Origin: Sialis fuliginosa
Taxonomy: Eukaryota; Arthropoda; Insecta; Megaloptera; Sialidae
Direction: 5' to 3'
NCBI GenBank assembly: GCA_961205875.1
Contig: OY540817.1
Location: 8,839,001-8,903,000 of the forward strand
DNA: 64,000 bases
Shown here: positions 1 to 25,309 of the stretch, piece after piece
Position numbering within the stretch: the first letter of the stretch is position 1
How the letters are laid out: the number at the start of each line of letters is the position of its first letter
Notes under the pieces: model-generated
What the model saw: the letters and a program-made list of their open reading frames with translations, nothing else
Told to the model about the DNA's origin: nothing
The model's database searches: none
Translations under genes and position numbers: made by a program

Positions 1-64
1 ATAGGGTTTATTACACTTTTGTCTAAAAGGCACGATGTTGCTGTTTTGTTTTTTCGGTCTAAAC
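1..64 (+). mobile_element. Right half of a palindromic MITE, cut by the window edge
   Basis: The stretch ends in GCTGTTTTGTTTTTTCGGTC followed by TAAAC. It matches the right arm of the hairpin element at 28325-28432, which also carries the block read here as ATAGGGTTTAT near its centre. The left arm lies outside the window. It is a non-autonomous DNA element with no coding capacity; the superfamily is unknown. Confidence 0.5.
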
Positions 65-629
65 TCGGCATTATATATACAAAAATAAGTAAAAAAAAAA
101 AGTTAAAATTCCGACCGGTTATGACCCACAGAAAACTGATTTTTCGACCTTATTCCAGCGATTTTTCAGACTAATGAACCGATGAAAAAAAAATTTCTTT
201 CTAAATTGTCGCAGTGGCTAAATTTTGATAATTAGTATTTTATAAGATCGCTTGAATAAAAAAAAAAATTCAAACCGTCGTTATTTTGTGAAAAAAATAA
301 AAAAATAAAAACGGCTTCATACAACCATAGTTACATTTATATAGATATTGATAAAAATAATATTTTTCCGATAACTCATCCCGAAATTCCGATGGGACAA
401 TGGAGAAAATTTTTTATATTTTTTAATAAAAATTCGTATTGAATGTTAAATATATACTTAATAAAATAGCCTCTACCCGATCCTAAAATAATTAGTTATA
501 CCTGTGTTTGTCTGTTGTTTGTTATATATACCTGTGAAAAAAATTCTCAAATATTGACAATTTTTTGACCCGTTACAGTAGGTTTTCCCCTTAATGTTGA
601 TAGTAACATGTAAATGTTATAAAACTTAC
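65..629. other. AT-rich stretch, no gene seen
   Basis: Homopolymer-rich AT sequence. The part from about 480 to 600 (repeated 'tatacctgtg') has the feel of a degraded LINE 3' tail, but no partner copy lies in the window. No open frame of note. Confidence 0.5.
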
Positions 630-676
630 GCATTTTAAGTTCTCGTCAGTGAAATAGATTGACTGGCAATGCTTAC
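630..676 (-). other. Candidate RS-exon (47 nt) after recursive splice site 1
   Basis: Read on the minus strand, this segment begins directly after the acceptor at 677 with GTAAGCATTGCC and ends at a second donor-like GTAAGTTTTA (629 downward). Its 47 nt are stop-free in one frame (third-base start, 15 codons). That frame is the one reached from an exon ending in phase 1, which is how the coding-like exon at 56003-56114 ends. It may therefore be an RS-exon that is normally skipped, or a small cassette exon. Both are inferences from splice signals alone. Confidence 0.35.
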
Positions 677-700
677 CTGAAAAAAAAGAAATCATTAGTA
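675..700 (-). promoter_or_regulatory. Candidate recursive splice site (ratchet point) 1
   Basis: The minus strand reads TACTAAT (700-694), then a pyrimidine tract, then TTTTTTTTCAG|GTAAGC with the junction between 677 and 676. A perfect branch-point-like motif about 18 nt before the AG, an almost pure T tract and an immediately adjoining donor are the defining parts of zero-length exons used in stepwise removal of long introns in Drosophila (for example in Ubx). The same core recurs on the same strand at 47752/47751. Chance occurrence in T-rich DNA cannot be excluded for one site; two matching sites downstream of a same-strand exon make it more likely. Confidence 0.5.
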
Positions 701-3171
701 CAAAGAAAAACATAATTTAAAAATTAATCAGATTTTATAACACATTTCAAACTTTTTACTGCATATTTTTAGTGTTTTGTACCGAAATCGCAAAAAATAA
801 TATCTGTTTATTAGTGTCTATAGGTCTAAACTGCAGCTATACTTAGCTGTCACAGAATTTTAATTTTATTTTTAAATATGTACAAAAATTGAACAAACCG
901 ACACTTCTAGAGTCGACATATTTCATGTCAACTACAATCATAATATACATAAGTATTTACAGTTAAGAGAACCCAAACAATTAATCACGTCAAGACAGTC
1001 GAGGACAATCAGTTGTGTGCCATAAGTAAATATTAACTTGTAAATGATTTGCGTGCTTCATTTTGTGCAGCAGAATATTTGATAAGCTGCGAGAGGAATC
1101 AAAGAATTAGCATATTATTCAATTAGGGCTAACCGCACAAATTAGAATACCACCGGTCGGTTTTGTAATTAACGGAGGGTTTAACTGTTCTTTGGATACG
1201 CAGATTACAAACTAATACTTGAGGTAAATAGTGAACAATAAAATCTACCCATTTATTAATCAAAGTATTTAAAAATATGAATTCTTTGATTTTGAAATAA
1301 ACTGATTTTAAATTAGATTCGAGGCAGTATTTTAAAATTCACCAATCACAAGACCTTATAGTTAGGGATGTGGTGGTAGAAATTTTAAATTATCTGTTTT
1401 TGCGGCGAAATTCAAAAGTGTGAAGATCTAACAATAAAAAATATCAGATACCATTTCTGCAATCATGGCATCTCTGCGTTTTCAATTAACAGTTAATTAA
1501 AAATGTAATAAAAAAGCTCTCCTATATTATTTGTTAGCTTCTGCAATTTATTCTAAAAGTTGTTCGTCAATATAACATTAATATAAACGCAGTTTGCAGA
1601 AATGTATGTCTCTACGTTAATTAGTAATTAATTTTTTTCATCAATTTTTGATATACCAAAAATTAAACGATTGTTCGTCGATTAACCTTATACAGAAATT
1701 TTCTTTAAGCCATTGGAAATAACATTAAGAGTCTTCTAATTGTATACCCCTGCGTGAAGGTGAATTTTTGAAAATGTATAAAAGTGCTATTATATCATTA
1801 GTTCGCTTCTGAAAATAATAGCTGCAGAAGTCAGTTTTTCTGATTTTTTCATATGCGTTAAGTGTTTTTTTCCAAAAAATGTATAAAAAATACACCATAT
1901 ATATTGTTGAATTCGTGCTTCAATAAGTTTTCATTTGAGATCCTACACAATGCTCTTGAATTTTTTTCCAATTCCCAATTTACCTCTTTTGGAGTAAATT
2001 AGGAATATTTATAAAAATCGGCAACATACAATTCTGCAACTGTTATTTTCTAGTTTTGGGTTTTAAAAAGAACAAATTAAAAACAAAAAGAATTACTAAC
2101 AAATGATTTAATAGAGCTTTTTTTTACTACTTTATTATTTTAATAAAAAATTCAGAGACATAGGTTTCTGCAAATCATATTTTTGTAATTAATACTGATA
2201 AATGAACATAATATACATTTGCAGAAACGAACTGATAATATAAAATACCTTTTTTGCAATTTTGAAATTCATTTGTTTAAAAAATCAGTAGTCTGCAAGC
2301 TCAGAACCTACTGTGATCGATTCGTTATATCAAAAACTTCACTACATGTTGCTATCAGTGACGAAAAAACCGTAAACCCATTCTGCTACCATCTCCCTAC
2401 TAACTATTATATTTATACAAAGGCCACTACAACACTTCAAATTCACCTAATGTTAAATTCCTTATGTTTGAATCAACTTGCATATGTATTTCTAAAAATT
2501 AACATAGTCATGTTATACTGTTTGTTGCAACAAGCTTGTATCGCAATTACTTGTGCTACTAATTTAATCAACCTATGTATGTATAATCTACGTAATTTAC
2601 GTTTCATACAGATTATTACAAACTTTAGTGAGACCTGCAATTCCCGGTCATACCTTCAATGTAGCTGTACTGAATTTGAACGTTACTGAATCAACTAACA
2701 TTTAATGTTGCATAATATCATTAAGTATGTCAGTGTTAATATACACGGTCTACTTCATTGATACATCAGCGTATTAATATCACAGAGAATATCACAAATG
2801 AGCTGTAATTGATGAGTACTTTGGATTTATGTTTATTGAATCAATGCAATATTTACCAAATGGATTGGATCTAGTTGTGATTAAAATAATAAACAGGTTA
2901 TACATAAACCTGTTAACGTTTATATAACATATCGGTTTATATGGGTATCAAAGCGTTATTTCAGACATAGCAAATATTTGATATTCTGTTACGAAAATTG
3001 TAAAAAAAAAAACAATTTTTTTAATTTGTAACCTGCTCCATCGATTTTAAATTTCATTCTGGAGTTTGGTCAGAAATTATTAACAAATTGTAGAAAATAA
3101 AATGCTTTGGATTGGTGACAAATATTTAATACACTATTTTAATGCCCCAGTTACAGTAAAGAAAGAAAAAA
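701..3171. other. AT-rich intronic or intergenic DNA
   Basis: No gene recognised. A short island of more balanced composition at about 1040-1200 holds a Runt-type AACCGCA and several ATTA cores and might be regulatory. A stop-free run at 2219-2689 (plus) encodes a low-complexity, composition-driven peptide with no recognisable domain and is not called as a gene. Confidence 0.5.
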
Positions 3172-3860
3172 CATCTGCCAAGTAAATGCACAGTGCTACC
3201 TCGTGTTAAATTCACCAAAGGTAGTTTTGAACAATTTAAATAAAAACTGATTGTGTTCAGATAAATTGCCTGGCATTTGTAATCCATTTAATTTTTATAC
3301 TTTACTTAAAAATATAAGTTCGAATTTTTTCATAAGACGCACCTGATTATTTTTTCGTATATTTTTAATTTTTTGACAATTTAAATCTTAATCTAAATTT
3401 ATACAAACGTCAAAATGACATTTAATATGTCAAAGTAAATATCAATTTTAAAAAAGAAAACACGATTTTTTAAAGCAAATTGAGATAAATCATTGTAAAG
3501 GAATATTTTACAACAAATTATAGGAAATTGATTGCTCTACAAAAAAGATTCTATACAATTTTCACATAGCAAGTGTTGTTCTTCAGATATCTTTAATAAA
3601 TAAATATTTAGGGATGTCACCCCTCCCCCTTACACACGATTTTGAAATGGGACTGTCATCAAGCCAGATCCAACCATCCAACCAAGTTTCATTAATATCG
3701 ATGTAATGGTTTATGAGTTACGCGTGTGACAAGGATTCAGGGGACAGACTCACAAACACGAAACGAAAAGATCAATTTAAAATTTTGAAATTCGAGAACA
3801 TTTTTTTATCTCATTTTAAAACGATCACAAAGCTTCTCGTATCTTCGATATTGCGAGGAA
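3172..3860 (-). repeat. Unclassified dispersed repeat, copy 1 (longest with 43716-44370)
   Basis: This segment is the reverse complement of the copy at 43716-44370 over most of its length. Shared blocks include the CGAAGATAC...CTTTGTGATC end, a GGGGACAGAC motif, a 'gggaggggtgacat' block and a GTCAAAATGACATTTAA block. Its other end is shared with 51366-51772 (ATCTGCCAAGTAAATGCACA). No protein is recognisable. The CTGTCTGTCC-like motifs resemble non-LTR tails, but neither terminal repeats nor a defined tail is visible, so the class is left open. Confidence 0.6.
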
Positions 3861-4257
3861 GCAATACAAAATTTTATTTAAAAAAACATATTTTTTTTGT
3901 TTGACTTGTCTTACGAAATTCACCAACATGAATAACGGGTTGATCCAATTTTTAGTTTACCAAACATAATAATTTTACGAAATCTCTGCTTATTAAAGTT
4001 ATTAATATTATAAATTACACATAGCATATCTGTACACGACATACCCTTTCAATAATACCGATATTTAATAGCATATGCAGTATGCAGCATAGTTTTAAAT
4101 TGAGTATCATATACCATATTAAATAAAGTATTAGCATCAGTCAAAGCGAACAACTTGAACCGGGCTAGCTTAACAAGTTGCAGCTAGTTCCAGCTGCAGA
4201 GATTCCGTGTAATGACTACGTAATATCCATGTTTATAAAATCTGTTTTAAATTACAG
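3861..4257. other. AT-rich spacer
   Basis: No gene seen. It ends in the candidate acceptor of the next feature. A small island at 4140-4200 contains GTTGCAGCTAGTTCCAGCTG, with two AGCT-containing half-palindromes. Confidence 0.4.
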
Positions 4258-4351
4258 GCCACATTTTAGATGTCGGATTATCTTTACACATAACACAACT
4301 TCCCGGTTTATAACACGCTAAGCTCGGCACAAACTCTTTGAGAAGAGGCAG
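4258..4351 (+). other. Candidate non-coding exon (94 nt)
   Basis: The stretch is bounded by an acceptor-like TTTTAAATTACAG and an optimal donor CAG|GTAAGTAAT. It is richer in G and C than its surroundings. All three frames contain stops, so if spliced it would be a 5' untranslated or long non-coding RNA exon. It lies on the strand opposite to the presumed host gene. Splice signals are the only evidence. Confidence 0.25.
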
Positions 4352-5307
4352 GTAAGTAATAAGACACTGCACGTCAAGAGATTTTCATGATTTTAGAGTA
4401 ATTCCTTGCTACAGTAAACCTACGCGTTGTTCATTTTGGTTTTAGGGATGAGTTTTGTTTTATGATGTTAGTAAACGAAAAATAAAAATAGAACTGAGTG
4501 TGGAAGAGATTACGTACTGACAGAAAAAGAATGTTTTATTTTTATTTCATATTTGATAAACAACTTTTTAATTGGCCTGATTTTTATTGTTTTTCTTTGA
4601 TATTATTAGTTGATGCTTACAATTTGTCTGTGACGTTAATATTTTTAAATTAAATCAAAAACAAAAATGGAATAATCTAGTTTTGTTCAGTCTAAATAGA
4701 ATAATGTTTCTGGATTAAAATATATTATCATGTAGGTAAATTTAATGATTTATTCATGAAGTTATTTTCATTAATACAATTAATTTGGTATCAATTTAAT
4801 TATATTATATATATTTTTTTATGTCATATTCTTCTGATATCTTTAATATGACTGTAATTAAAATATGTAAGCTAGAATTATCATTTTCGATTGCAAGTTA
4901 AATAAGATAAAATTTAACGGAGAAATGCATAAGTAGCGAAGTTAGCAAGAATAACACTATACTTAAAAAACGCTTAGAACTTTTAAATTTGCAAACTAAC
5001 TAGAGCGAAAATCTTCAATCACCACAGTTTGAAATGGTGCAGGATTTGAAAATTTAATCTCACAATTTGATAAGCCAATTCAATTGAACTTCTACGCTCG
5101 CAATTTATTTTCCGTTTAAAGTTTGTAAGCGACAACAGATTTTTCGGATTAGAAATCCTCTCGACGATGGTGAATTTTTTGTTGTTAAATTTTAAAGTGA
5201 TATATTCACAGAGTTCGTCTATTGATAAATGTAAAATAGGTCAAATTACTTACAAACTTTGTTAATAATAGCATGCTTTGAACACGGTAATTAGATTGAA
5301 ATTCGCC
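4352..5307. other. AT-rich stretch, no gene seen
   Basis: After the donor-like GTAAGTAAT the sequence is AT-rich without open frames or recognisable repeats. Confidence 0.4.
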
Positions 5308-5823
5308 AAATAGAAGAAAAAAATTATAAAGTTTTGATATTTTGTCCACGAACTCTCAGTAAGGTTCGGAATAAGAGCCCGGAAAGTTCCCACATAAATC
5401 GTTTGAAAAAAATTCGTGGTACATGGATCTCATAGAGAAGATTAAGTTCTATAATTTTTTTCAGCTGTTTTATAAATATTTATGGTGAAAACTCATGTTA
5501 TGCCGATTTTTTGCTGCGTTCCCAAAACTACCCTTCACTTTGATCAACGATTGCGAGAGTAGGCTGAGGATTAACCGAATAGTTCACATGACATTTTTTA
5601 CGTAGAATTTTATATAGAATCTTTAATTCCTGTAATATTTTTTTTTCGAACTGAAGTTCGGATGAAAAATGAGAAATACTGGAATACATTCCACAACGGG
5701 GGTTGTTTTTCACGTGAAAGGGGATGTTCCATTCTCGATTTAGTTGGGAACTTTTCGGGATCTTATTCCAAACTCGAGTTCGTGGATAAAGTATCAAAAC
5801 TTTATGAATTTTTTCTTCTAAAA
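5308..5823. repeat. Long inverted repeat (foldback), arms about 80 bp
   Basis: The left arm (5308-5392) contains AAAGTTTTGATA, TCCACGAACTC, GGAATAAGA and GAAAGTTCCCA. The right arm (5742-5823) is its reverse complement with scattered differences. The spacer is about 350 bp. This is the shape of a non-autonomous DNA transposon with long terminal inverted repeats. No target duplication or second copy was identified. The 140-codon stop-free run on the minus strand here mostly follows the arms and spacer and resembles no known protein. Confidence 0.55.
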
Positions 5824-6004
5824 TATTTAATTTACTTGGACTATAATTATTTCCCAAATGTCTAGACATAATGTAAAATATAAATGTAAGTATAAATATC
5901 TGCCATGGGAGCCACGGTACTTTTTTATACGTAACACTGAGAGTGAACAATGTAGGTGTTTCTAATTTTCAAGAAAAATATTTCAAACTAATAAAAGAAA
6001 GGGC

Positions 6005-6393
6005 TAATACTAAATTACATTTTAAGGATTGAAATTTTTATTTTTCAGTTTTTTTTCCAAGGATTGAAATGTAATTCAGTTATAAAATAAAAAAAGAAAA
6101 TAAAAAATATGTCAATTTTAATAATTGACTTGATAAGTTACATCATATCATAAAATTCAAACAGATTTCCAGTATTAGTACATTTTATAATCCCTTTTAA
6201 AAATTATTGGAGAAAAATATTAAATTATTAAAAATAATTTATTGTACCTTTTAAAAATACATGGTTACCGGTTATACATGAAAAGGTTCGGATTCAGGTT
6301 CAGGTTCGTTGACTTTGAAATATAGTGGTTCGGTTCGGGTTCAGGTTAATGAAAAATACGGGGTTTTTCGGGTTTACGGTTCACAAGTAAGGT
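6005..6393 (-). mobile_element. hAT-type MITE, family A, truncated copy
   Basis: The reverse complement matches the fuller copy at 38051-38685: a TGTAATTCAGTTATA block, GATAAGTTACATCATA, then the GGTTCAGGTTCGTTGACTTT and GGTTCGGGTTCAGG repeats typical of the subterminal region. The terminal GGTTCAAGT motif is degraded here (GGTTCACAAGT). The other end is missing. Confidence 0.7.
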
Positions 6394-7324
6394 AACAACC
6401 TGATTTTCAAAATTATTTACCCGCAAAAAGTTTTATTTTTTTAAGTAAATTTTGAAGAAATGATTTCCATACCTGTAATTTCGAAACGAATTGATACATT
6501 ATTACAAGAAAATTCATTTCATCAACATTGACGGAACTCGCACATTTTGTACGACGTATTTTAATTAGTCTATCAAATCCATAAAAAAAAACATTAAAAT
6601 TTCATTACAATTTTAATTTCAAAGTTATAGACATTACATATGTACCTGCTATTACAAAAATATTTATTTTTAATCTCAGATACGAAACTGAACAGTAAGT
6701 CAAAAGAAATCCTGCTATCAGAATGTAAGCGTTATTGAAAATTCTATACAATCCATTGAAAGTATTGAATATCACACCACGGTGACTGGAGCGTGTTATT
6801 GTATTTCCCAGCGGGAGGGGGTAATGGTACCGTGGTGAGGTTTGCGGTAGAAAGTCTAGAATCGAGGAAATTAAAGTGGAAAATATTGTGAAATTGTTCT
6901 TAATATCTAAAGGTATAATAATTGTTTCGTTAATTAATTAATTCCTGGTTTGTTAATACCTTTTGCTTCAATTATTGTATGCAGTATATGATATGTTTGA
7001 ACTAAATTACTAATTATACTTTTTGTTAATACCTAGTTAATACTTAATTAGTTGAGTGCTTTTCGGAATCCAATTAATTTTTATTACTAGATACTTCATT
7101 TATTTGTCAATAAACTATTTCTCATCTATAACATCCTATTTTATAGTAGATATGTTTATAATAAAACACTGATTAAAAAAAAACTTTATCTATAAAAAAT
7201 ATATTGTTAAGACAACTTTAATAAAATCTTTAATTGCAAAAGTGAATATTATTTTGTACAAGAAAAATACGTCTTTTGACGAGAAAATGCGAGTTCTACA
7301 TATTTTCATTCAAATTATTTAAAT
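6394..7324. other. AT-rich stretch, no gene seen
   Basis: A short GC-richer patch at about 6780-6845 (GGTGACTGGAGCGTG, GCGGGAGGGGG) stands out. It is flanked by CACCACGGTGAC and TACCGTGGTGAGG, which form a small imperfect inverted repeat. Nothing else recognised. Confidence 0.4.
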
Positions 7325-7777
7325 AGAACCCAACACAAAAATAATGAGATTTGACTATTGGTTGAAATTTTCGCAACTTTAAGAAATTATTGTTCAAAGT
7401 GTGTTGATCAAAAGTTGTAATGTGGGCAAGCGATGAAAACTCATAATTTCCGCTTGAAGGAAACGAAACTTTTTATTTATTTTTATTTTTATATCTCCAA
7501 AAGGATCAACTTTAACAAAAAGTAATGTGTAAAAAGTGCTTAAAATTATTTATTAGAATTTATTATAACATTATTTAATTTTATATATAACTGTCGAAAC
7601 AAAAAACTAAAAAATGACATAAAATGTACAAAAAATAAAATAAAATAAAAAACAATAAACATGAAATTATTTTCGTAGATTGTACTGATTACAATTTTTT
7701 ATCAGTACGATTTGAACTATACATTTCCCAAATTACAAAAAAATTCAACCAAAAAGTCAAATCTCGTGCGGGTTCCT
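7325..7777. mobile_element. Inverted-repeat DNA element with 35-45 bp arms
   Basis: The left arm (7325-7370) reads AGAACCCAACAC...GAGATTTGACTATTGGTTGAA. The right arm (7742-7777) is the reverse complement (TTCAACC...GTCAAATCTCGTGCGG). A single matching arm (CCGCACAAAAATAATGAGGT) also lies at 37976-38020, just before the hAT copy at 38051, so the arm belongs to a dispersed family. Superfamily undetermined. Confidence 0.5.
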
Positions 7778-8403
7778 TTTTAAAAATACTTCAACAAGCA
7801 AACTTCAAAATGGTTACGATAAAATATCATTTCAATGAAAACTTAAAAATGAAATAATCATATTTCATTAAACATTTAATTAAACTTGTCTTAATTTAAA
7901 ATATTCTACGATACTCTCGTAATAAATTGTCGACAGAATACAATGAAGGGCTGGAATGAATTGTTCCTCGCGCCATCTCTAAGCATGAGACAACAATACA
8001 GTTATTTTATTTATTTAATTAATTTTTACATTAAATGAACGTCATCTCCATTTAATACCCGCAAAAAATTTCCGACCAAAAATATGCGTAACAGCAAACC
8101 TATTGTTATTTTGTTTGGAAAGTGTTGGGATTGAAATTGTAAATTGGTTTTGTTACTTTATACCAATTAATCAATAACACATTTAGGGAAATTAATGTGA
8201 ACGTTTTTGTTATTCTGAAAAACACACAATGTACACACAAATGGCAAAGTAAAGTTTAGAAAACCCATTTAATTTAAATTTATAACAACAGTAGGGGAAT
8301 GTGTTTTACCTTGGGTCAACTTTTTAATATTGTTTTGTATAACTTTTTCATTGTCAGGACATTTACTAAAAAAAATACGTTAGTAAACTTAGAGATACTC
8401 ATA
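7778..8403. other. AT-rich stretch, no gene seen
   Basis: No open frame, repeat partner or splice-bounded segment noticed. Confidence 0.4.
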
Positions 8404-8925
8404 TTAGAGCTGGGCGCGTGAGTAATTTTTGCTCACGATCACGCACCCTCACGAGAGAAAATTTTTTAGATACACCTGCTCACGAATCAACTTTTTTTAA
8501 TCACGCCCGATTAAGGCACGGCGGATCACGCTCGTGACACAATTTAATGTAAATAGTTGCAAATTAAATTTTGAAATGATGAAAATTAATGTTTTTTACG
8601 TGTAATATATTATGTGTATATTTTATTTTCATATTATTTATCTAAACTGCATTTTTAGTACAAGTAATAGCAAACAAAACAATTAAAAAAATAAATCAAG
8701 CATTTAAAAACTTTTTTGGTGTTCCGGTAGAGTTGACAATACTGACCATACAAAAATGCATTTTTAGTTCATATATTAAAAGAAAATAAATAAGTTTATA
8801 AAAAAATCTTCAAAATATACTCACGGATCACGCACAAGAAAAATGAACTCACGCACGGTTGTTTTAATTTGACTCACGATCACGCACGCTCACGATTCAT
8901 GATTTGAAAATCGCTCACACTCCGA
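8404..8925. mobile_element. hAT-like element with CTCACG subterminal repeats, one end lost
   Basis: It starts with TAGAGCTGGGCGCGTGAG and carries many copies of CTCACGATCACGC near both ends (8430-8540 and 8815-8925) around an AT-rich core. Clustered subterminal motifs of this sort are usual in hAT elements, where they bind transposase. No matching inverted end is visible on the right, so the element is degraded or cut. TAGAGCTGGGC recurs at 19989. Confidence 0.5.
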
Positions 8926-9682
8926 AAAATTCATTTTATGACTTCTGACAGCTTGAATCGATTTCTGTTATTTGTAGTAGCTAAGCCTCACAAAGCCATA
9001 TTTTATTATTTTTTAATCAATTTTAATTATAATATATTTTTATGCTATGGATTATGAGTCATGGTATATTGTACCAGTACCACTACTAAAAATTTTATGC
9101 AAAAGTTTATATAATAAATATTTTTCTCTTTATGTGATCGTATGTTTCACCCCTAGAGCTTGCCCAGCCTACCCCCCTCCCCCCTCTCTTAAGTTACAGA
9201 AAAGTATTATCCACGTCTTCTATTACAATTACAATACTAAAAATGCTTTGATAACTGAAATATCTAAAAGGTTTTTATACATTATAAAATTTTAAAAAAC
9301 TTAGCTATATTTTTAAAACTGATAAATATCAAATTATTTTATGCTTGGTTTTTTTTTGATTCTGTTTTGAATATTTTTTAATCCGACAAATTGTAATTAG
9401 AAATTAACTTGTATATTTTCCAACATAAATGTAAATATACGAGTTATTAGATTAAAAAGGTTCAGAAAACATTTTCCTAAAAGTTTTATGCGTGGTTTTC
9501 AAAGCAAAAGTTTTTTTTTTGACAAAAATCTGTAATTATATATTTACATTCAGTTTTAAAGCTCCCGGTTTTTCCTCTGATATGTAAACGAAGAAGAATT
9601 TAAATAATGTTATATATACCTTCAAATAAAAACAAACATAAAATTCAGATATATTAGGGTATTTAATTAATAGAGAAATATA
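8926..9682. other. AT-rich stretch, no gene seen
   Basis: Contains a short C-rich run at 9165-9190 (ACCCCCCTCCCCCCTCTC). The 82-codon stop-free run across it is low complexity and not called. Confidence 0.4.
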
Positions 9683-9684
9683 TA

Positions 9685-10194
9685 AAGTACTGACATCAGT
9701 CTTGCATCATACCCCAGTGTTGGACTCTTGTTTAATTCAATATCCTAAATTAGAAATATCTATTGATATTTCATTACTGCCATTACTGAATCATAATCCA
9801 GACACAGCTTAATTTGATAACAATCGGCCAATAAGTATTAAATATCATAGCATCTGCTTTACATTGTTTCAAATTTTATGATTTTTTATTTTATAACTTT
9901 TGTGTCTTAATACCTACTTATCATTTTGTAATCATAAGCATGTATCTATCACTGGGTGCCCATTACTGGTTTTAATTTATCCATTACTGGAGAAAAAACA
10001 TAAATAAAATAAAAGACTTTAATTTAAAAAACAAACTATGTATATATGCAGACTTTGGTAATTAAATTGATTTAATAAAAAAAGTACTTGTTTTATTAGT
10101 AACATGAGTTCTTGAGAATTACAAAAAGAAGTTCATCAATCCTAAAAAACAGTATACTTTGATCTTAAAGCAGTCAAGATTGGTGCCAGTATCT
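9685..10194 (-). mobile_element. TA-flanked MITE, family T, copy 1 (510 bp)
   Basis: It is flanked by TA on both sides (9683-9684, 10195-10196). The right end GGTGCCAGTATCT and left end AAGTACTGACATCAG are inverted relative to each other. The interior matches 40680-41150 closely (CATAGCATCTGCTTTACATTG, TTTGTAATCAT, CATTACTGG). TA target and short TIRs suggest Tc1/mariner-type mobilisation; no coding sequence remains. Confidence 0.75.
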
Positions 10195-11467
10195 TACTTT
10201 CATACATAATGACATGATAAAATGGAGATAATAAGAAATGTTATACCAAAGTAATTTTTATTTAATTTAATTTAATAGTTCAATCATCTGAACACCAAGA
10301 CATTTATCTTTTTAAACAAAGAAGGTCTTTCATTAATTGCTCGCAATAAAAAAAATCAATTTTCTACTTCCTTCAACTATTTTCTTTAACAAATTTCTCT
10401 CTCAACTTTATTCTCTAATGAGTTATCATGTCAAACAAAAAACTAAAGAATCGCAAACTGCTACTGTCAAAAAAATACAACTTTATCTCACTCTGGCAAT
10501 ACAGCAAAACACAATGAATGACGAGGATGAAAAATTCTCGAGTTTGATAAATAACAGTTCCTTAATTTCCGTTCCAGAAGTGTCTGCTCGGATATTTTTC
10601 TGACGCCAACTTCTCACATCGTTTCTAACCCTCCCCACCTCCACACCCCACGCATATTGCGGCGGGTAAAAGCTAAGATGTAGCAGTAGGTACTGGTGTA
10701 ATTTTACCAGATATATATTTCCTGTACCTTTGGGAGAAAACTGTATCTTATATTTGTTTTAGCTATTAAAGTACATATTATAGGGATTTTTTCATTCAAT
10801 GTTTATTTTTAGAACTGTGACAAGAATATCTGACGTTTAGCTTTTTATTAAGATGAGTTTTATATGATATTTGATTTACCTACTTTTAAAAATCATAAGA
10901 AAGATTGTCTCATGAAATCACATGAGTATATTTAACATTTAAGTTAATGTTTTGATATTTATAGAGAAAAACTGTTTTACCTGATCTAATTCTATGACCA
11001 GAATATTCACCAAACTCTTTAGAAGTTAGGTAACTAGTCAGGGGTGCTTGTTTCTTAAAAATTAACTGCAAAGTTAATTGTAAAATCAAAATGTTTTTTT
11101 TTTAATTAAGGATCGATTTATTGTCTGTAACAATATAACATTTTGAGTTGTTTACTAAACCGATTTTAATAAGACTTTCACTGTTTGGAATCCTTAGTGT
11201 TTGGAATTAGTTAGGATGGAAATTTAAGCTCGTATCCAGGAAAATTAATAGATTATAAATAGTTACTATAAATGAATATACAATATGAAAAATACAATTA
11301 AAAATATAAATTTTATTTTTGGCGTAACACTTTTGAATGTCATGAGCTAAAAAAATGTAAGAAACAAATTTACATTAATTGTCACTAAAAATTTGACTCA
11401 TGTAGTTTCTAATGTAATAAATAGAATTGCTAAAACGTTTTCATTAATTTATCCATTTCATTTCAAG
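10195..11467. other. AT-rich stretch with one ambiguous ORF
   Basis: An 88-codon plus-strand run (10337-10603) has a mildly protein-like C-terminal part (MNDEDEKFSSLINNSS) and is followed by a C-rich patch. No domain is recognised, and splice signals or a homologous copy are absent, so it is not called. The rest is AT-rich. Confidence 0.35.
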
Positions 11468-11507
11468 AAGCCGCCTAACTCTGTATAGCAGTACGTTAAC
11501 AGAATAG
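11468..11507 (+). other. Candidate 40-nt micro-exon, non-coding
   Basis: A pyrimidine-rich acceptor (CATTAATTTATCC...TTTCAAG) precedes AAGCCGCCTAACTCTGTATA, and the segment ends at GAATAG|GTAAGTATCT, a strong donor. Two frames have early stops and the third ends in TAG, so it would be non-coding. Splice motifs are the only evidence. Confidence 0.2.
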
Positions 11508-11620
11508 GTAAGTATCTCTAAAATTGAACATGGTACGCAAAAAGAAATCCATTATGCAAAAAAGAAACTTAACAGAAATAAAAGACGCTACTTCTCTTAC
11601 TCCCCTTATCCCTAACTCTA

Positions 11621-11700
11621 TGTACTCCCTGATGCCACATTAAACGGTTAGGTTTTTCAAAAGAAATTGATATGCGCTCACCAATGAAGCACAAAATATA
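11621..11700 (+). repeat. Direct repeat, copy 1 of 2 (partner 13105-13180)
   Basis: Shares CGATGCCACATTAAACGGTT-type sequence (here CTGATGCCACATTAAACGGT) and the following TTTTTCAAAAGAAATTGATA with 13105-13180. The hAT element at 12348 lies between the two. They may be two copies of one dispersed element or remnants of its ends. Confidence 0.5.
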
Positions 11701-12339
11701 TGGAATGTAAAGGAAGATGGATATAAATGTATGCCGTACGATCTGAATAATTCAAATTTTAAATATAACGTTTGGTGAAAATAATAACCACTCAGAATTG
11801 CAAATTTAGTTCGAAATCTTAATGGTTTAGTATAGTTTTATAAGTTTTTTCAAAAAAGTATTGAAAAGTAATTGTACTGTACTTAGAAATGCACTTAACT
11901 AAGTTTTACTTTCTTATTGCCATAAAATATAGTCTATTTAATCGACTTTTTTCGAATTTATAACCGGAAGCGAATGTTAACTCTTGTTAGTTTTTGAATT
12001 TACAAATTATTTTAGAAACGGTACGCATTAAAAAAAAGTGGTGGGTCTCACCCACATAAGCGCACGGTTGAAATGAAACTTTCTCTGTTTTTATTAACCT
12101 TACGAATTAAATAAATAAAGCTAATTGTAAACATATTAAATAAATAATCAAACGTATAATCCGTATACAAACACAAAGCACAAAACATGGTTTTGTTGAC
12201 TTGAACGCATACGCTACTCTACATCTTATACATCTACTCATCGCTCTCTTCCTTAGCGTTTTTATGTTTGATTATTTGATGAAAGTGTCGAAGGTATTCT
12301 AAATCTCAGCCTCGTTAAAGAAGTTCCACTTCAAAAATG
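11701..12339. other. AT-rich stretch, no gene seen
   Basis: Nothing recognised up to the target duplication of the next element. Confidence 0.4.
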
Positions 12340-12347
12340 GTTTAGAT

Positions 12348-12843
12348 CAGCGGTTCTTAAACTAGGAACTATTGCCGGGGGTCCGTGAAACATGTTTGGC
12401 ATAAATTAAAGTACTTTTTTACATTTCTATTTACCAATGATTAATTACTATCTTACGACCTACTTTGTTTTTCTGTCAGGGAGGCAGGGGTTATTTCAGT
12501 GTGTAGTTGTAGCTTATTTCTGCAGTTGTAAAAGCTAATTTTTGCAGTGCAAAAAATTGAAAAAATGTATAATAAATAAATAAAATAATAAAGTGTGTGA
12601 AAAAAAAGTCATTGCAGTAATAAAGCAAAAAATATAAGAAATGTAGAGCAAAAAAAAATTATTGCCGTTATAAAAGCAAAAAATGTATGAAATGTAATGC
12701 AAAAAACAAAAATCATTGCAATTGAAAAGCAAAAATTGTAAGTATGGAGCAAAAAAAACGGTTGTAAAATTTTCTTAAAATAACTCCTGAAAAATAATTG
12801 TTCAAAAGAGGGTCTCTAGACTAAGTAAGTTTAAGAACCGCTG
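12348..12843. mobile_element. hAT MITE with perfect 8-bp target duplication (496 bp)
   Basis: Termini CAGCGGTTCTTAAACTAGG and, inverted, AAGTTTAAGAACCGCTG form TIRs of the widespread CAGYGGTTCT hAT type. The 8 bp on each side are identical: GTTTAGAT at 12340-12347 and 12844-12851. The interior lacks a transposase and is largely a tandem repeat (next entry). The intact duplication suggests a fairly recent insertion compared with the other elements here. Confidence 0.9.
12540..12770 (+). repeat. Imperfect ~50-bp tandem repeat inside the hAT MITE
   Basis: Three to four units of the form CATTGCARTAATAAAGCAAAA, a spacer with AAATGTA, then GAGCAAAAAA follow one another, with units of about 48-53 bp. 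The repetitive 65-codon minus-strand run at 12535-12732 is an artefact of it. Confidence 0.7.
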
Positions 12844-12851
12844 GTTTAGAT

Positions 12852-15800
12852 AGAAGTTGTATATAGGGAATGTTATCGTTTATATTTATGTCCGTTTCAT
12901 TTTTTCTCTACTTTTTATCAGTTAGTCAAAAATAAATGTACAGTGTTTATTTTCAGTATAACGTATTAAAAAATCCCCTCTTTTAATGTATTTAATTAGA
13001 TACTTTAAGACAAAATAAAAATAAATCAAAATTTTGCACAACATATATTTAGAACAAGAAGATAAGTGAATTCTATATTAAAAAACAGTGCCCCAATTGT
13101 GTACAATCCCCGATGCCACATTAAACGGTTAGATTCCTAAAAAGGAATTGGTATGCGTCCCGTAGTAAAGCTTTCATCAGCTGCGTTTTCCGTTTTGTTA
13201 TATATCCTTTTTCGCTGTGAACATCGCTTTTCCGACATTTTCTCCTACTGAATAGTTTCATACAACGTTATTTGTTAAGAATGCCGAGCTGCAGATGTGT
13301 TCTGTATGAGTTTCTAACTTTGCACAACTAACTAATGTAACCAATCAATAAGAAATGATGTTATAATTAGAGCTCGTTCAAGTCGTGAATTACATTAGTA
13401 AGCATTTTTTTTTAATAGACCGATTAAATTAGATTTTTTAAAGGAATTAATATTTGCCTCATTTATTTTAGCGCTAATAGATGGCAAATGATGCCCATAT
13501 AATATATCAAAAATGCAAGGCTGTAATACAAAAAAAAAATATGAGTGTCGGTTATGTTTAAATCGTCGATGCAGTGAAAACGTTGTAAGATAGAGCAAAA
13601 ATTAACAGAATCAATTTTACAGATATTTTTCCTATAATAATGATACTCCGGTTTATCTATACCTAAAACTAATAGTTCAGGAGTGAGAGTCGTTCAAAAC
13701 TCGAGATTAAAATGTAGTTTTTTTTAAATGTCGCAATTTGCCTCGGTTTTCTATAAAATTTAATATCAAAATTTTCAAAAAAATTCACGGTTTAACTAGA
13801 TACTATTGGAAAGCTACTCACGAGTTTAAAACTTATTTTTATTTTAAATTGTAGCTATAGGGGCAGTACTAAGAAATAATTTATTGTATTTTATTGTCTG
13901 TTTTGCATGTTAATTTTTCCATGATCTATTATTCGCCGAATAAAACAAAAATATTTGTTTTAAAGATAATTTTATCCACCACAAATTCAATCTCTTGATA
14001 TTAAATCGTAACTGCAATCGCTTACAGTTTTTAAATAAAAACAAGATGGCAACTTTGGTCAAATTAAAATTATACGTAAATAAAGATAGCTGGGTACTTA
14101 TGTATAGCAATTTACTCAATTTAAAATGCTACACAGCTATCTATCGGAAGTTTATAATTTGAGTGGACTATTTTGTATTATCACAATAATGTTTAAAAAG
14201 TCTGAAATAATCGATTTATAAATAAAATTGAAAAACAGTTTCGTAATCAAAATAAAACTAATAAAATATGGAAGTGGTCGATATATCTTCTGAAACACGA
14301 AGGTTCATTAATACAAAGACTTGAACCAACCTACATCAACTTATATGTATTTTGCAATTTAATATCAAAAGAAGGTAAAGTATAAATATGTAGGATAGTT
14401 CTTCAGGAAGTAACATTTCTCATGACTTGTATATTTATGAAAATTATATTTAAAATTCAAAACATCAAAACAGGACGGCGTTTCATTGAGACTAAAAGAA
14501 ACATTGTCAATACACAAGAACAGAGCGAGGTTCATGAAACGGAATAAAAGATGGGGACACTATAAATAATTCAACATTTTTATCTGGCGCAAAACAGTTC
14601 CTGAAGGTAAACGCTGAGGTACAATATTAATTCAACAACAGGGAATACTACAAACGTTTTCAGACGGTGTAGAACTAAAATGATATGGAATATCTAAAAA
14701 CCAAATCGTATAGATCAGGCGCGTAGATTTTTTTTTTTTGTATTAAAAAATGTTTATAACCATGAAAATCTAATTCATACAAAAAAATTTTAATAAAATT
14801 TAAGGGGATTATTTAGTGTATCAATTTGGAAGGAGTGTACATTTTTTTATTTAAGAGTAGTGTTACGAAATGTGAAGTATATGGTAGACAATGAATTTTG
14901 CTATACATACGAACGTAATGTTGCATTGTAATTAAAAAATATAAGCTGCAGAAGATCACATTGAGTTAGAGGAAGGTGCCACTTATGAGCCAGGACTCGT
15001 TAAGTAACAGTTAAAATCAAAATTCGATCAGACTAAGAAAATCTTCATTAAATCAATAAAATATGAAAAAACTTTTAACGCGTTTTCCCCAAAACTATGT
15101 TTTTTAAAATGTCTGACATACATAATATCTCAAGATCTATTTGACCGAATTACTTCATATTTGGTGTGTACCTTCAATGCACATGTCTTTACAGCCGGTA
15201 GTTAAAATTAATTTTCTAATTTTATAGTCCACGTAAAAAAGGAAATTAATAAGTTTTTAAATCTGATTTTTACTCAAGAGCAGAAAATCTAAAATCATGA
15301 CAAAAAAATGGTTAAAATAACTCATCTTACATCTATAAAAACTACTTTGATCATATTATTCTTTGACAAAATATTAATAAATAAATTCTGATAGATTCTT
15401 TTTTTGTTCTCTTAAAATAATCAGTAAAGATGATGAAAGCTTAGTAAAGAAGTATTGAACGAAACGGGAAGATTTATATATTTATTGAATAAAATTGACT
15501 TTTCAATTTTAATTTTATCTGAATTTAATTAAATATAGTGCACGAATTAAGTTCTCAATATAAAATCCAATTTAGTAAGAATTTCCAAGACTTCTAATCT
15601 GAAATTAAACAAAGAGGAAACAGAAAACCAATAAATCTGAAATTCCTCAATATAAGATATTCGATTAGACTGAGAAATAAATATATTTTAACAAATAATT
15701 GTTAGAGAATATTAAACATTCAAGGAATTCTTCGTCGCCTTTTTAATGCGAATAAAAATTAGAGAAACTTAATATGTGTCATATAGTAAGTGGAGTATAA

Positions 15801-16002
15801 GTTATAAATACCCTCCCTTTCTATTTTCTTATTGTGTTGTTTAGAGGATATTTTAACAAAATTTTAGAACTGCACAATTTGAGTAAAAAATTTGACAAGC
15901 GCAAGAAGAACTCGAATCTTGTGGGTTCCTTACCGTTATATAAAACTTATTTACAATCTCCGTTTTACATTGTTTACCAACACAATTCAAAAATTAAAAA
16001 AA
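12852..16002. other. AT-rich stretch, no gene seen
   Basis: About 3 kb without a recognisable gene. It holds the second direct-repeat copy at 13105-13180 and a T tract after ATCAGGCGCGTAGA (14716), possibly one end of a lost DNA element. Stop-free runs at 13395-13598 and 13910-14119 (both minus) are AT-driven. Confidence 0.4.
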
Positions 16003-16260
16003 TACTAGCTGTGCCCACGTGGACTACGGAATTATTGTTTAGGATTTTTGAAAAATATAGTTGAATTAAGTACAAACACATTATTATCGTGATAATAACT
16101 AATTTACCTAAAAAACGAATCAGAACAAAAATGACAAATAATTTTTGTTCTGTTTAAATTTAAAAGTTAATAATTGAAAATAAATAAACAACTGCCGGTC
16201 GAACGCAAATTCTTTCCCTCTGCCATCATAGTTCGCGCGAATTGCCGCGAATAATATGTT
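16003..16260 (+). mobile_element. LINE-tail family B fragment (partner 54393-54635)
   Basis: Starts with ACTAGCTGTGCCCACGTGGA, the degraded form of the 'tagctg..cccgcg..ttcg' start common to insect RTE-like non-LTR tails. The following ~240 bp match the minus-strand copy at 54393-54635 (AGGATTTTTGAAAAATATAG, TTGTTCTGTTTAAAT, CGCGCGAATTGC, AATAATATGTT). Confidence 0.6.
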
Positions 16261-16657
16261 GCTTTATGTATATGTCAAGTTATTTCCTAAGATACTTATT
16301 AAATAAACACTAATTTTGAGTAAAAGACTGTAGCTCCATCAGGAAGAATTTCCGGACATAGGTTCACATAAGGTTTTTTCTTTAAAATTACATCCTCGAT
16401 CTACTGTTAATTTTTTTTACACTAGTTGTAAATCACCCTGTATATTAAGGATTAAATTGTACATTTAAAAAAATAAACATTAACATTTTACAGAACAATA
16501 TATTTAAATATTGCTACTGTTTACAATTAAAATTTTCAAGTTTCTAGTTTATATAGTTTCCGAGATATTTTTCTTTGCCTGAAAAGAACGGACGGACGGA
16601 CGACAAAGTGAGGTCAACGGGGTTTATTCGGAACTCTAAAATGAAAATAGTACGTTA
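16261..16657. other. Spacer with a probable LINE-tail scrap
   Basis: GACGGACGGACGACAAAGTG after a CCGAGATATT motif (16560-16610) is the usual composition of non-LTR 3' tails; no partner copy of this scrap is in the window. The rest is AT-rich. Confidence 0.35.
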
Positions 16658-16781
16658 TACAAGTCTTGATGCTTCCGCGGTGATTTTGTTATGGATCTTG
16701 GCTTTTGGTGTGAGCCGCATCGGTTTGGTCATGTTATCAGCCAACGTTTCGTCACACATTGCAGTGGACATCTGCAGATCC
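16658..16781 (-). mobile_element. Penelope-like or related retroelement end, fragment
   Basis: Matches the left arm of the palindrome at 47222-47440 (CGTTTCGTCACACATTGCAG, AAGTCTTGATGCTTCCGCGG). The minus strand carries a GATGTCCACTGCAATGTGTG...ACGAAACGTTGG block of a kind that abounds near termini of Penelope-like elements. It is a fossil fragment with no usable coding sequence. The family assignment rests on motif style and is tentative. Confidence 0.4.
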
Positions 16782-17057
16782 ATATCAAGATAACGTATTG
16801 TTTGGGACAAAATAACACATAGTTTTATTAGAAAGAAACCAACAAAATGTTGTGTCGAGTTAACAAAAAGCACATAGCTTCACCTAGACATTGGCTGCTT
16901 GTAAGAAACAAAAGAGCATCAATCTATCTTAAGTACGCTCTAACGAAAACACTTCATTTCCTTTCATAACACATGAGATAAACTCGTTTAGAACATTTAG
17001 TTGTTCAACTCATATATGATGTGTCTCAATACAATGTACATGCGCGACAGTGACAGT

Positions 17058-17153
17058 TTACGGGGTTAAGGATTTGCCGTCCTTCTCTAACGATTGCTTT
17101 TCCTCAGGACGTGACACATTTTCTACAATAAGTGTACGTTCTTTTTCTGCCAT
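17058..17153 (-). CDS. Short coding-like ORF of 31 codons, unrecognised
   Basis: From ATG at 17153 to TAA at 17058 the minus strand encodes a hydrophilic, charged peptide starting MAEKERTLIVENVSRPEEKQ. Its composition is unlike that of the AT-driven frames around it, and codon third positions are mixed. The frame stays open 13 codons upstream of the ATG (to about 17192). A CCCC|GTAAAC donor-like site overlaps the stop, so it could be an exon of the minus-strand gene, a tiny gene, or a relic of a mobile element. No domain is recognised and no signal peptide or membrane segment is present. Confidence 0.25.
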   Translation of the reverse strand: MAEKERTLIVENVSRPEEKQSLEKDGKSLTP

Positions 17154-17414
17154 ATAATAAAGTTTGTACTGGGGTTTTGAAAATTGAAGTTTTTAAAACG
17201 GATTTACTGAATTAAAGAAATTAATATAGCTCCTATGAACTCGAGAACTATTTTTAGATGTTGCAGACTGTGTATGTTTCCATTTTATGTACATGAATCG
17301 TTGAACCAAGTAACTTATAATTCAATATTTTGAACTTATATTTACAATTCGAGACTATAAATTTAAGTACATGTTCCTAATCTGTGAGAAGTTTTGTAAA
17401 TCAAAAAAAAAAAA

Positions 17415-17680
17415 AGGTATTGACACTAGACTTGTTTAATTAAATGTACTGAATTAGAAATATTTCTTGATGTTTGATTACTACCATTACTGAATCAAAA
17501 TCTATAGATACTTAACTGTAAAATAGCATGATTTGATGACAATCGGTCAATGGGTGTCAAAATGGTGGACATGTAAACTAATTATTAATTATTAATTATT
17601 ATATTATCATAGCATCTGCTTTATATTGTTTACAATTTTACGATTCTTCATTTTGTAACTTTTGTATCTTTATTATACCA
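17415..17680 (-). mobile_element. TA-type MITE, family T, copy 2 (truncated)
   Basis: AGGTATTGACACTAGACTTG followed by the shared AATTAGAAATAT, CATTACTGAATCA, GACAATCGGTCAAT and CATAGCATCTGCTTTA blocks matches 9685-10194. The second half is missing. An (ATTATTA)-type run at 17580-17600 interrupts it. Confidence 0.65.
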
Positions 17681-18278
17681 TTTAAATCTGTCGAATTTTA
17701 AAATCTGTTTCACTTCAAAAAACCTACTTATTTCCTTACTTAATTTTTAACAGCTTATACGTTATATTAAAGAAGGACTTGGGAACAATTACAGTCATAC
17801 CATTTGTTCAAGTCACATTGCATAGATCGAATCAATAATATTTTATATTACGAAAGCCGGTCGGTCGGTACAATAACTAAAGAGACGTAAATCTGAAACA
17901 AGCACCGAAATTTCGAGGAATTAAACATTAAAAATTCACATAAATGTGATGAGCCATCTTGTCTTTTAATGCATGTATAAAATATAAGTATGTTTGTTTT
18001 TTATTTTACATTATATTTCAGATAAAAACTTGTCTGGCATTTCTTATAAAATTTTATTTCATAGAAAAGCAAGATAATCTTATGAGATAATATCTTATAT
18101 GTCAAAATATTTTTAAACTTATTTTCCATGAAAATAATTAATATTAACATGGTATGATATATTTTGAAAGTAAAAAGTTTTGCTTTGAAATGAAGTTTTT
18201 GAGTTTAAGGATAATCTCAAATAAAAATTCTTTTTAGTGCACAAATAAACATTTATGAATTTTTTATTTTATTACATA
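17681..18278. other. AT-rich stretch, no gene seen
   Basis: Nothing recognised before the LINE tail. Confidence 0.4.
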
Positions 18279-19236
18279 ACTAGCTGCTACCCGCGACTTC
18301 GCTCGCGTGGATTTCGAAACCCTTCATATGTGACAGGGGGTAAAATATTAAATTTATCTTATTTTTAGTTTTCTTTAATTATACAAAATCGTAAATGTGT
18401 CGGCTCCTATGCGAGATAGAGGGGTTTTTCCGCCCTAAAACCCCCGCCCCCGTGGTATTTTTCCCGTTGGATCGAATAAAACCACTTACAACCCTTCATA
18501 TGTAACGGGTAAAATATTAATTACTAAAAAAAATTAAAAATTTTCCTCCCCCTTGCAATTCCTTAGGGGTTGAATTTTCGAGATACGAAATAGCCTTAAT
18601 CCGTCCTCGGGATGTAAGCCATCTCACTGCCAAATTTCATCAAAATCGGTAAAGCAGTTTAGTCGTGAACAGGTAACAAATAGACAGACTGAGAGATACA
18701 CTTTCGTATTTATAATATAAGTCGCGACTCCTATGTAAGATAAGGGGTTGTTTTGTCCCCCTAATAATCCCTCTTCCGTAGTATTTTTGCCCGCCAGATC
18801 GAATGTAATCAATTACAACTCTTCATATGTGACAGGGGGTAAAATATTAAATTTTTCTTATTTTTAGTTTTCTTTCATTATACAAAATCGTAAATATCTC
18901 GGCTCCTATGCGAGATAGAGGGTTGTTTTGCCCCCTAGAACCTACGCCCCCGTGGTATTTTTCCCGCCGGATCGAATAAAACCACTTACAACCCTTCATA
19001 TGTATCGGGGGGGTAAAATAATAATTACTAAAAAAAATTAAAAATTTTCCACCCCCTTTCAATTTCTTAGGGGTTGAATTTTTAAGATACGAAATAGCCT
19101 ATGTCCGTCCTCGGGATGCAAGCTATCTCACTGCCAAATTTCATCAAAATCGGTAAAGCGGTTTAGCCGTGAAAAGGTAACAAACAGAAAACAGACAGAC
19201 ACACACACTTTCGCATTTATAATATTAGTATGGATA
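18279..19236 (+). mobile_element. RTE-like LINE 3' region with internal tandem duplication
   Basis: Starts ACTAGCTGCTACCCGCGACT and ends in CACTTTCGCATTTATAATAT followed by TAGTATGGAT, the usual borders of short insect RTE-type tails. The section 'CGGCTCCTATGCGAGATAGA...CCCGTGGTATTTTT' appears three times (from 18400, 18724 and 18898). The 'CTGCCAAATTTCATCAAAAT' plus 'GTTTAG.CGTGAA' tail appears twice (18629 and 19130). Two head-to-tail copies, one partial, explain this. No reverse transcriptase is left. Confidence 0.75.
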
Positions 19237-19308
19237 TCGTAAAATGTCCAAATATTACTTTACTTAGTATTTTATTAACTAATTAAAATTTGAACAATAA
19301 AACTTAAA

Positions 19309-19390
19309 TTTTTCGAAAAATTGTTCATTCGAAGAATTTTGATTCGAAAAATTGTGATTCGAAAAATTGTGTTTCGAAAAATTTACACCA
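19309..19390 (+). repeat. Short tandem repeat, unit about 18 bp
   Basis: Four or so units of the form ATTCGAAAAATTGTG follow each other. TTCGAA makes each unit partly self-complementary. Confidence 0.7.
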
Positions 19391-19407
19391 AACCTAATAA
19401 TTAATTT

Positions 19408-19594
19408 CGATATTTTACCTTTCATGGAAGTGAAATGTTTCTTCATATTTAAATTTTCAATCAATATAGGCATTTCAAAATATTTAATTGTTAATATGTG
19501 TCAAAAATCATTTAATTGTTCGACAAAATATTTTAAAGAGACATAATCATAGTAACCTAAATTAATAAAATAAAATATTGAAACCGTAAATTAT
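19408..19594 (-). repeat. Dispersed repeat C, copy 1 (partner 46676-46829)
   Basis: About 160-190 bp shared with 46676-46829, including TTTACCTTTC.TGGAAGTGAA, TTTAAATTTTCAATCAATAT and GATCATAGTAACCTAAATTA-type blocks. On the minus strand both copies keep the same frame open over a peptide of the form IENLNxKKxFTSxKGKIxKL, which suggests a relic of a coding element. Not recognised. Confidence 0.55.
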
Positions 19595-20160
19595 AAAATT
19601 CCGTATTCCATGGCTAGGTACTATGTTTTTATATACCTAAATTATAACATACCTGGTTAAATTATTTCTATATCGTCCCCTCCAAGGCAAAGTAGCGTAA
19701 GATACACTTTTTGCGAAATTGAGTTATCGATTCTAAAAATCTCATATATAAGCGACAAAATTCTCTTTTCCGCTAAAAAATCTGTTAAAACTTTTACTAT
19801 CGTATTCCTCCAGACAATGTATTCTAAGCACCGATATCTGTTTTATGAAATATCGTAACCAACAATAATATAGTATCGTAACCAGTGACGTAGCTAGCCC
19901 TGAGTGGATCCTGACTGGCCTATATGGAAGGTACTTGCCGCAACGGAATAATATAGTGCTGTGACGGAGTGCTTTCTTATTTATTCATTAGAGCTGGGCT
20001 TTTATCAATTTTAATTTTATTAATTTTAAGATATTTTAGAAAAATCGTACCTGTTAAAACTTTATTGCACAAACTAAATATGGTTTCTCTATGAGGTTTT
20101 TTCAATATATTTGTTACCCTCAATAACTCAATTTGGTTGATATTGAAGTATGATGTAGAA
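19595..20160. other. AT-rich stretch with possible element ends
   Basis: CCAGTGACGTAGCTAGCCCT (19881) looks like one end of a DNA transposon of the CAGTGRCGTAGCTA type, and TAGAGCTGGGC at 19989 repeats the start of the hAT-like element at 8404. Neither has a partner end here. Confidence 0.3.
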
Positions 20161-20230
20161 CAGTGCTTCCTAAACTTTTCCTACGACAGAACACTTCACA
20201 AATCCTGAAATTTTAATGGAACGTCTTGGT
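20161..20230 (+). mobile_element. Single left end of a hAT-type element
   Basis: CAGTGCTTCCTAAACTTTTC matches the common CAGTGNTTCTCAAACTTT hAT terminus. No inverted right end was found downstream; the element at 20371 lies close behind. Confidence 0.4.
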
Positions 20231-20370
20231 TATTTTGTAAGTAATATATAAAATAATGAAAAAAGTAAATTTAAATCAGTCAAGCATGTTTGAACTTCTC
20301 GCAGCATTTAAAAACATTGAATATTTGTTTTACGCTTAAACTGATAAGACATACGTTATATATCGTAGTA

Positions 20371-20657
20371 CAGGTATTCCTCGACTTACAACCGAGATAG
20401 GTTCCTAGACATCGGTCGTAAATAGAATAAGTTGTAAGTTAACACGTACAATATGTACATATTTTTGCTTTTGACGTTTTCCTTGATGTGAAGCGAATCG
20501 CATTTTCTATACATCAAACAGTTGCGGGTTCCCAAAAATATCTACATAAATAATAATATATTACATTTTTGGGAAATTCCCGGAACTGTTTGTTTCATTT
20601 ATGTAATATGTGCATGTAAGAAAGAGACAAAGACAATTATAAGTCGAGGATTACCTG
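20371..20657. mobile_element. pogo/mariner-type MITE, 287 bp, TA target
   Basis: The left end CAGGTATTCCTCGACTTACA and the right end, inverted, CAGGTAATCCTCGACTTATA form about 20-bp TIRs, with TA on both sides (20369-20370 and 20658-20659). The CAGGYA..CCTCGACTTA terminus is of the Tigger/pogo style. No transposase; a stop-free run over the right half (20522-20728) has no transposase features. Confidence 0.8.
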
Positions 20658-20659
20658 TA

Positions 20660-21839: not shown

Positions 21840-22080
21840 TTACATTATATCGCCCAAGGAATATAAAAAAAATAATAAAAAAATTCTAACTTTTTTTTTG
21901 AAAAATTGGGGGCCCCTTGTCACCCCATTTATAAACTTTTTCAAAAAAGGCCCACTAGTTGTTATTTTTTACCCCCAAGGAATATATATACCAAATTTCA
22001 AGGTTCTCCGATGAGTGGAAATGGTCAAAAAAATGATTATCAGTCAGGGCACTTCGTTATATATAGTAGATGTAGATACT
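21840..22080 (+). mobile_element. LINE 3' tail fragment, different family
   Basis: TACCAAATTTCAAGGTTCTC, AGTGGAAATGGTCAAAAAAA and CAGTCAGGGCACTTCGTTAT followed by a TATATATAGTAGAT end are typical of non-LTR 3' regions in insects. Two 'gggccc..ttgtcacccc'-like segments (21910-21975) precede it. Truncated; no coding sequence. Confidence 0.5.
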
Positions 22081-22100
22081 TACCTAACTAAAATAAAAAA
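22076..22100 (-). promoter_or_regulatory. Weak candidate ratchet-like site
   Basis: The minus strand reads TTTTTTTATTTTAGTTAG|GTAAGTAT with the junction between 22084 and 22083. The donor is optimal, but the pyrimidine tract is interrupted and the site abuts a LINE tail, so it is much weaker than the sites at 677 and 47752. Confidence 0.2.
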
Positions 22101-24426: not shown

Positions 24427-24428
24427 TA

Positions 24429-25130: not shown

Positions 25131-25309
25131 TACTTTACTATTTAAATATGAAATCAGATTTTATGTAGTTTATGCCGTTATTGAGATAATGCACATTGAA
25201 AATAATTGACTGCATTTTATATAAACAACGTCTGCAATGACTTAAATATTTAAGTTACAAAGGTATATGCTCTCGCGGACTTATATGTAGAACTAATTGA
25301 ACTAGTTAA

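Follow-up and report, generated by a model that had tools for sequence, protein, structure and literature searches.

On the minus strand of the 64-kb window (the whole stretch of DNA analysed here), the signals of a splice acceptor and a splice donor abut each other at position 676, which raises the question whether this locus is a recursive splice site (ratchet point) in a long intron and, if so, what becomes of the short segment that follows it. In the direction of the minus strand, and with a slash marking the splice break, direct reading of the letters gives a candidate branch point TACTAAT (694-700), a polypyrimidine tract with the CAG end of the acceptor (677-693, CAG at 679-677), and GTAAGC, the putative ratchet-point donor (671-676), which adjoins the acceptor at the break between 677 and 676. 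A putative cryptic RS-exon of 47 nt (630-676) follows, bounded by the ratchet acceptor and a further GTAAGT, the latter forming the candidate RS-exon donor TGC/GTAAGT (624-629). The original prediction had named TACTAAT, the T tract, CAG/GTAAGC and another GTAAGT 47 nt on, and all of them are present; the 630 of that prediction is where the segment ends. The site thus has the juxtaposed 3' and 5' splice sites of a ratchet point, (Y)nNCAG/GTAAG, with GTAAGC and not GTAAGT, and in sequence also the short RS-exon closed by a downstream donor. About 100 nt past the 629 donor, at 531 on the same strand, there is a weaker AG/GT site, CACAG/GTATAT (score 9.7), which could permit an alternative gene model with a short intron.

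TACTAAT occurs 15 times on the minus strand of the 64 kb, which by arithmetic corresponds to a chance of about 0.7% for any given 31-nt stretch. Upstream of 676, pyrimidines occupy 12 of the 14 positions from -18 to -5. The strength of the splice sites was judged with a position weight matrix (PWM) built from assumed insect frequencies, by which the acceptor is outscored by 10 of 2706 minus-strand AG sites, the GTAAGC donor at 676 by 1 of 3316 minus-strand GT sites, and the 629 donor by 240 of the 3316. With the same matrix, CAG/GTAAGC scores 13.0, or 11.0 when remade after a candidate exon at 56003 (see below), and the 629 donor 5.2.

How often would such a site arise by chance? Among the AG/GT sites of both strands, the two best by PWM are 47751 (18.2) and 676 (17.8), followed by 22083 (16.2), all three on the minus strand; the best plus-strand site scores 11.6. 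Markov sequences of orders 1-4 (60 per order), which lack real genome structure, contained on average 0.05 to 0.18 sites with a score of at least 17 per 64 kb, and none of the 60 sequences at any order had two or more. Taken singly, the best simulated sites had scores of 17.9 to 20.5, which makes one such site alone unremarkable. A consensus rule, YAG/GTRAG with pyrimidines at 11 or more of 14 upstream positions, picks out three sites on the minus strand (47751, 22083 and 676) and none on the plus strand, where the lone CAG/GTAAG, at 4352, has no pyrimidine tract. At least one consensus site was present in 24, 14, 29 and 37 of 400 simulated windows (orders 1-4, respectively), and at least two in 0, 0, 1 and 1 of 400, which amounts to 2 of 1600 overall.

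The telling feature of 676 and 47751 is the second donor. GTAAGT is found 12 times on the minus strand of the window, and only 0.8% of minus-strand positions have one 25-70 nt downstream. Two of the 160 minus-strand AG/GT sites do, and they are exactly 676 (at 47 nt) and 47751 (at 38 nt). On the plus strand the count is 2 of 146 (20374 and 20401), neither of them among the 15 best-scoring sites of that strand. Consensus sites with a downstream GTAAGT were present at least once in 1 of 1600 simulated 64-kb sequences and twice in none of the 1600 (orders 1-4), figures that are somewhat flattering because 676 and 47751 were already known when the consensus rule and the distance of 25-70 nt were fixed.

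The companion site at 47751 has, by direct reading and PWM, a T tract with CAG acceptor (47752-47762, minus strand) and a GTAAGC that would be its ratchet donor (47746-47751). Its putative cryptic RS-exon has 38 nt (47714-47751), contains a stop codon when entered after one carried-over base, and ends at the predicted donor TTG/GTAAGT (47708-47713, PWM score 9.1). This donor was absent from the earlier finding and therefore provides a partly independent check of the RS-exon design. At both 676 and 47751, the PWM from assumed frequencies rates the ratchet donor above the RS-exon donor, as is usual, although not universal, for ratchet points. A search for TACTAAY at -50 to -12 of 47751 found none. 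The weaker third ratchet-like site, TTAG/GTAAGT after a T tract (22078-22083, minus strand), was found by both PWM and consensus rule, and has no GTAAGT 25-70 nt downstream.

As had been claimed, 676 and the site at 47.75 kb share their core: CAG/GTAAGC follows a T run in both, 18 bases are identical (670-687 and 47745-47762), and identity from -12 to +8 is 90%. Together with the many repeat families in the window, this could mean that copies of one mobile element brought in both sites. The flanks speak against it. Compared without gaps, the upstream flanks have an identity of 0.307 and the downstream flanks one of 0.229, random pairs averaging 0.297, and there is no extended gapped match in register. 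A few short matches persist when the core is masked and the low-complexity filter is switched off. The best of them (28 bp at 86%, E 0.004) is not nearly colinear; another, exact over 13 bp (E 0.012), is close to colinear and lies about 250 nt downstream of both sites. We read them as noise of AT-rich DNA. Self-BLAST of 400-1200 against the window at E ≤0.01 returned nothing besides the 18-bp core. Within the window, self-BLAST and flank comparison therefore support the earlier statement that the flanks differ and that the core is not simply part of a shared repeat, and we consider descent from a common mobile element very improbable. Repeats as such are present: a diverged family in both orientations, 82-89% identical, at 3166-3863, 43712-44357, 51362-51771 and 55470-55612, is possibly a transposon family, and a direct repeat of about 410 bp (18318-18722 and 18817-19229) is 90% identical.

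A ratchet point presupposes an intron, and the candidate gene context has to be considered. The window is AT-rich (GC 24 to 33% per 2 kb), has two stop-to-stop frames of at least 120 aa, the longer one of 166 aa, and contains 35 diverged repeat pairs at E ≤1e-10. Rfam at gathering thresholds gave no match in the window, and a bacterial-code tRNA scan found no tRNA. A pure (TAACC)9.4 array at 57390-57436, within apparently chromosome-internal sequence, is the complement of TTAGG, the insect-type telomere repeat, and makes an arthropod the likely source of the DNA.

The best candidate for an upstream coding exon, according to an ad hoc exon search, is a segment of 112 nt on the minus strand (56003-56114, phase 0 in, phase 1 out). 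Its acceptor scores 7.3 and its donor 10.5, its GC content is 0.53 compared to about 0.29 around it, and its sole open frame leaves one base over. When splice scores and GC are added up in an ad hoc ranking, it comes first of 61 minus-strand internal candidates, overlapping ones included (31.6), a modest lead over the top one among 55 on the plus strand (28.4). Both 676 and 47751 are on the strand of this exon, 676 at a distance of 55 kb, and the downstream exon would fall beyond base 1. That 676 belongs to an intron is plausible, with one candidate exon as the basis. The second-ranked minus-strand internal candidate, 10492-10721 (230 nt, GC 0.42), would, if real, split the presumed intron between 47751 and 676.

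The peptide of exon 56003-56114 alone had no match in Pfam. A pattern search with the 73-aa frame around the exon picked out 10 stretches of viral_contigs and 143 of genome_contigs, of which none was confirmed as a relative; a lack of relatives in these viral and prokaryote collections is expected, since they contain no animals. A Pfam scan of 10 minus-strand translations (X at stops, E up to 1) covered three frames each of 49001-63999, 34003-49001 and 1-14999 and one of the three frames of 15001-29999. Nothing in these translations exceeded the curated cut-off. The sole row, OAD_gamma (E 0.4, 11.8 bits compared to a cut-off of 27), was rejected.

Drosophila ratchet points with cryptic RS-exons, reportedly treated also by Joseph et al. 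2018, offer the closest comparison. In passages of Joseph et al. 2021 (PMC8605326), which treats the Drosophila cases Ubx, kuz and Bx, ratchet points in long introns are described as including a cryptic RS-exon, about 50 nt in length and followed by a downstream donor; this exon has to be recognized before splicing proceeds from the ratchet donor and the exon is lost. The same passages state that the ratchet donor is generally stronger, favouring skipping, and that cryptic exons as a rule do not keep the reading frame, and they mention an hth reporter in which the exon was skipped although the ratchet donor was weaker. The sites in our window resemble these ratchet points in the abutting acceptor and donor, the T-rich tract, the weaker downstream donor and a length that is not a multiple of three, and their segments of 38 and 47 nt are to be compared with the about 50 nt given for Drosophila in these passages. 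They differ in having GTAAGC at both sites, where the consensus quoted in PMC2773006 is GTAAGT, in the possible intron segments, which are longer than is typical for the fly, and in being known from sequence alone. As for vertebrate RS-exons, in the portions of PMC6224609 and PMC8605326 that deal with them, exon definition via a downstream donor is likewise followed by competition between two donors; they are mostly expressed according to PMC8605326, whereas the 47-nt segment is predicted to be removed.

We favour a model in which 676 is likely to be a ratchet point in a long minus-strand intron, with a 47-nt cryptic RS-exon that would be removed. If the Drosophila model applies, the acceptor at 676 and the GTAAGT at 629 would jointly define the 47-nt cryptic exon. 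The upstream exon (56003-56114 or another one) would then join 676, either in one step or by way of 47751, and the new junction would recreate a strong donor, ..G/GTAAGC. This remade donor would be expected to outcompete the weaker donor at 629, so that the 47 nt would leave together with the remaining intron, and the mRNA would bear no trace of the event. It is most likely that the 47 nt are first defined and then removed, since the ratchet donor outscores the 629 donor and a length of 47 nt does not divide into whole codons. The sequence itself shows the signals, how they are spaced and how rare they are, the bias towards one strand and the ranking of the donor scores; we infer the membership of 676 in an intron, the order of the steps and the removal of the segment. 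As the prediction of a site of a known type, 676, originally proposed as a recursive-splice-like site at 0.68 kb, is well supported at the level of sequence by its PWM rank, the downstream donor and the simulations.

Some observations do not sit easily with a ratchet point. The donor is GTAAGC and not the consensus GTAAGT, and 47751 is without TACTAAY. Distances are a further point. From 56002 to 47751 there are 8.3 kb, followed by 47 kb to 676, or by 25.7 + 21.4 kb via 22083. Fly segments are typically roughly 9-15 kb long, and 63% of fly introns above 40 kb have a high-confidence site, as stated in PMC6110457. If one intron uses both sites, all segments but the one of 8.3 kb exceed the fly-typical length, which counts against the model.

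Two other readings would give the 47 nt a different fate or none. The segment may be an expressed coding microexon, alternative or constitutive and similar to that of Ubx, that starts with GTAAGC, uses the 629 donor and inserts GKHCQSIYFTDENLKC after a phase-1 exon. Its GC content of 0.38 compared to about 0.28 locally would fit, some fly RS-exons are expressed according to passages of PMC8605326, and the original prediction was right that a phase-1 exon such as 56003-56114 leads into the segment in an open frame: one of its three entry frames is open, namely the one that follows a single carried-over G and encodes this peptide. However, any given frame is open in 34% of the 47-nt stretches on the minus strand, so that the open frame carries little weight and is no evidence for inclusion. 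An expressed RS-exon of the Ubx m1 type would be expected to have a frame-preserving length, as cassette exons usually do, and neither 47 nt (676) nor 38 nt (47751) preserves the frame. The 629 donor is weak, and the 53-aa peptide made by joining the exon peptide to the 47-nt segment had no match in PDB chains or Pfam, although a query this short can miss. With its length, the chance expectation for its frame and the stronger ratchet donor all pointing the other way, the earlier hint that the segment may be included in mRNA is weak, and we regard an expressed microexon as unlikely. Alternatively, the site may play no part in splicing and be a motif that arose by chance or a decoy, located in DNA that is not transcribed or in ordinary intron sequence. 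Splice signals are short and degenerate, single consensus sites turn up in the simulated windows at the frequencies given above, and the 17-mer core TTTTTTTTCAGGTAAGC is found in 8 stretches of viral_contigs, so that these 17 bases cannot by themselves identify such a site. What speaks against a decoy is the rarity of two sites in one simulated window, above all with downstream GTAAGT, the strand bias of 3 to 0, and the companion site of the same design, and we consider a decoy rather unlikely, though not negligible. A combination is also conceivable, namely a two-way switch, normally a traceless ratchet, in which regulated retention of the 47 nt would shift the frame after a phase-1 exon and lead to another downstream frame or to mRNA decay; we give it only a slim chance.

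The site at 676 is probably a further instance of an already known mechanism, since enrichment of ratchet sites relative to the complementary strand in introns above 50 kb was reported in 2009 for fly, mosquito, bee and beetle (PMC2773006). Table 2 of that paper lists 1.03 sites per 100 kb for mosquito, 0.48 for bee, 0.81 for beetle and 2.20 for fly. The excess on one strand in mosquito, bee and beetle is mirrored here by three consensus sites in 64 kb, all of them on the minus strand. The published analysis was statistical, with other scoring and with known introns, whereas our intron is itself presumed. Among the open-licence papers listed for Lepidoptera, Bombyx, aphid or arthropod, no title or abstract start described recursive splicing in these animals. 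In passages of a paper on bee ELAV (PMC8553928), recursive splicing is brought up and ruled out for an exon of 3 nt, and the passages of PMC13105047 on recursive splicing do not mention insects as such.

The value of 676 is that of a clean, testable case in a genome that is probably not that of the model fly, and the window shows the cryptic-exon design twice. We suggest a search rule that can be applied without RNA, namely juxtaposed CAG/GTAAG with GTAAGT 25-70 nt on. If the prediction is confirmed, the scheme known from the fly, in which a throwaway exon is used for each step of intron removal, would also work in an AT-rich, repeat-rich and probably non-fly genome.
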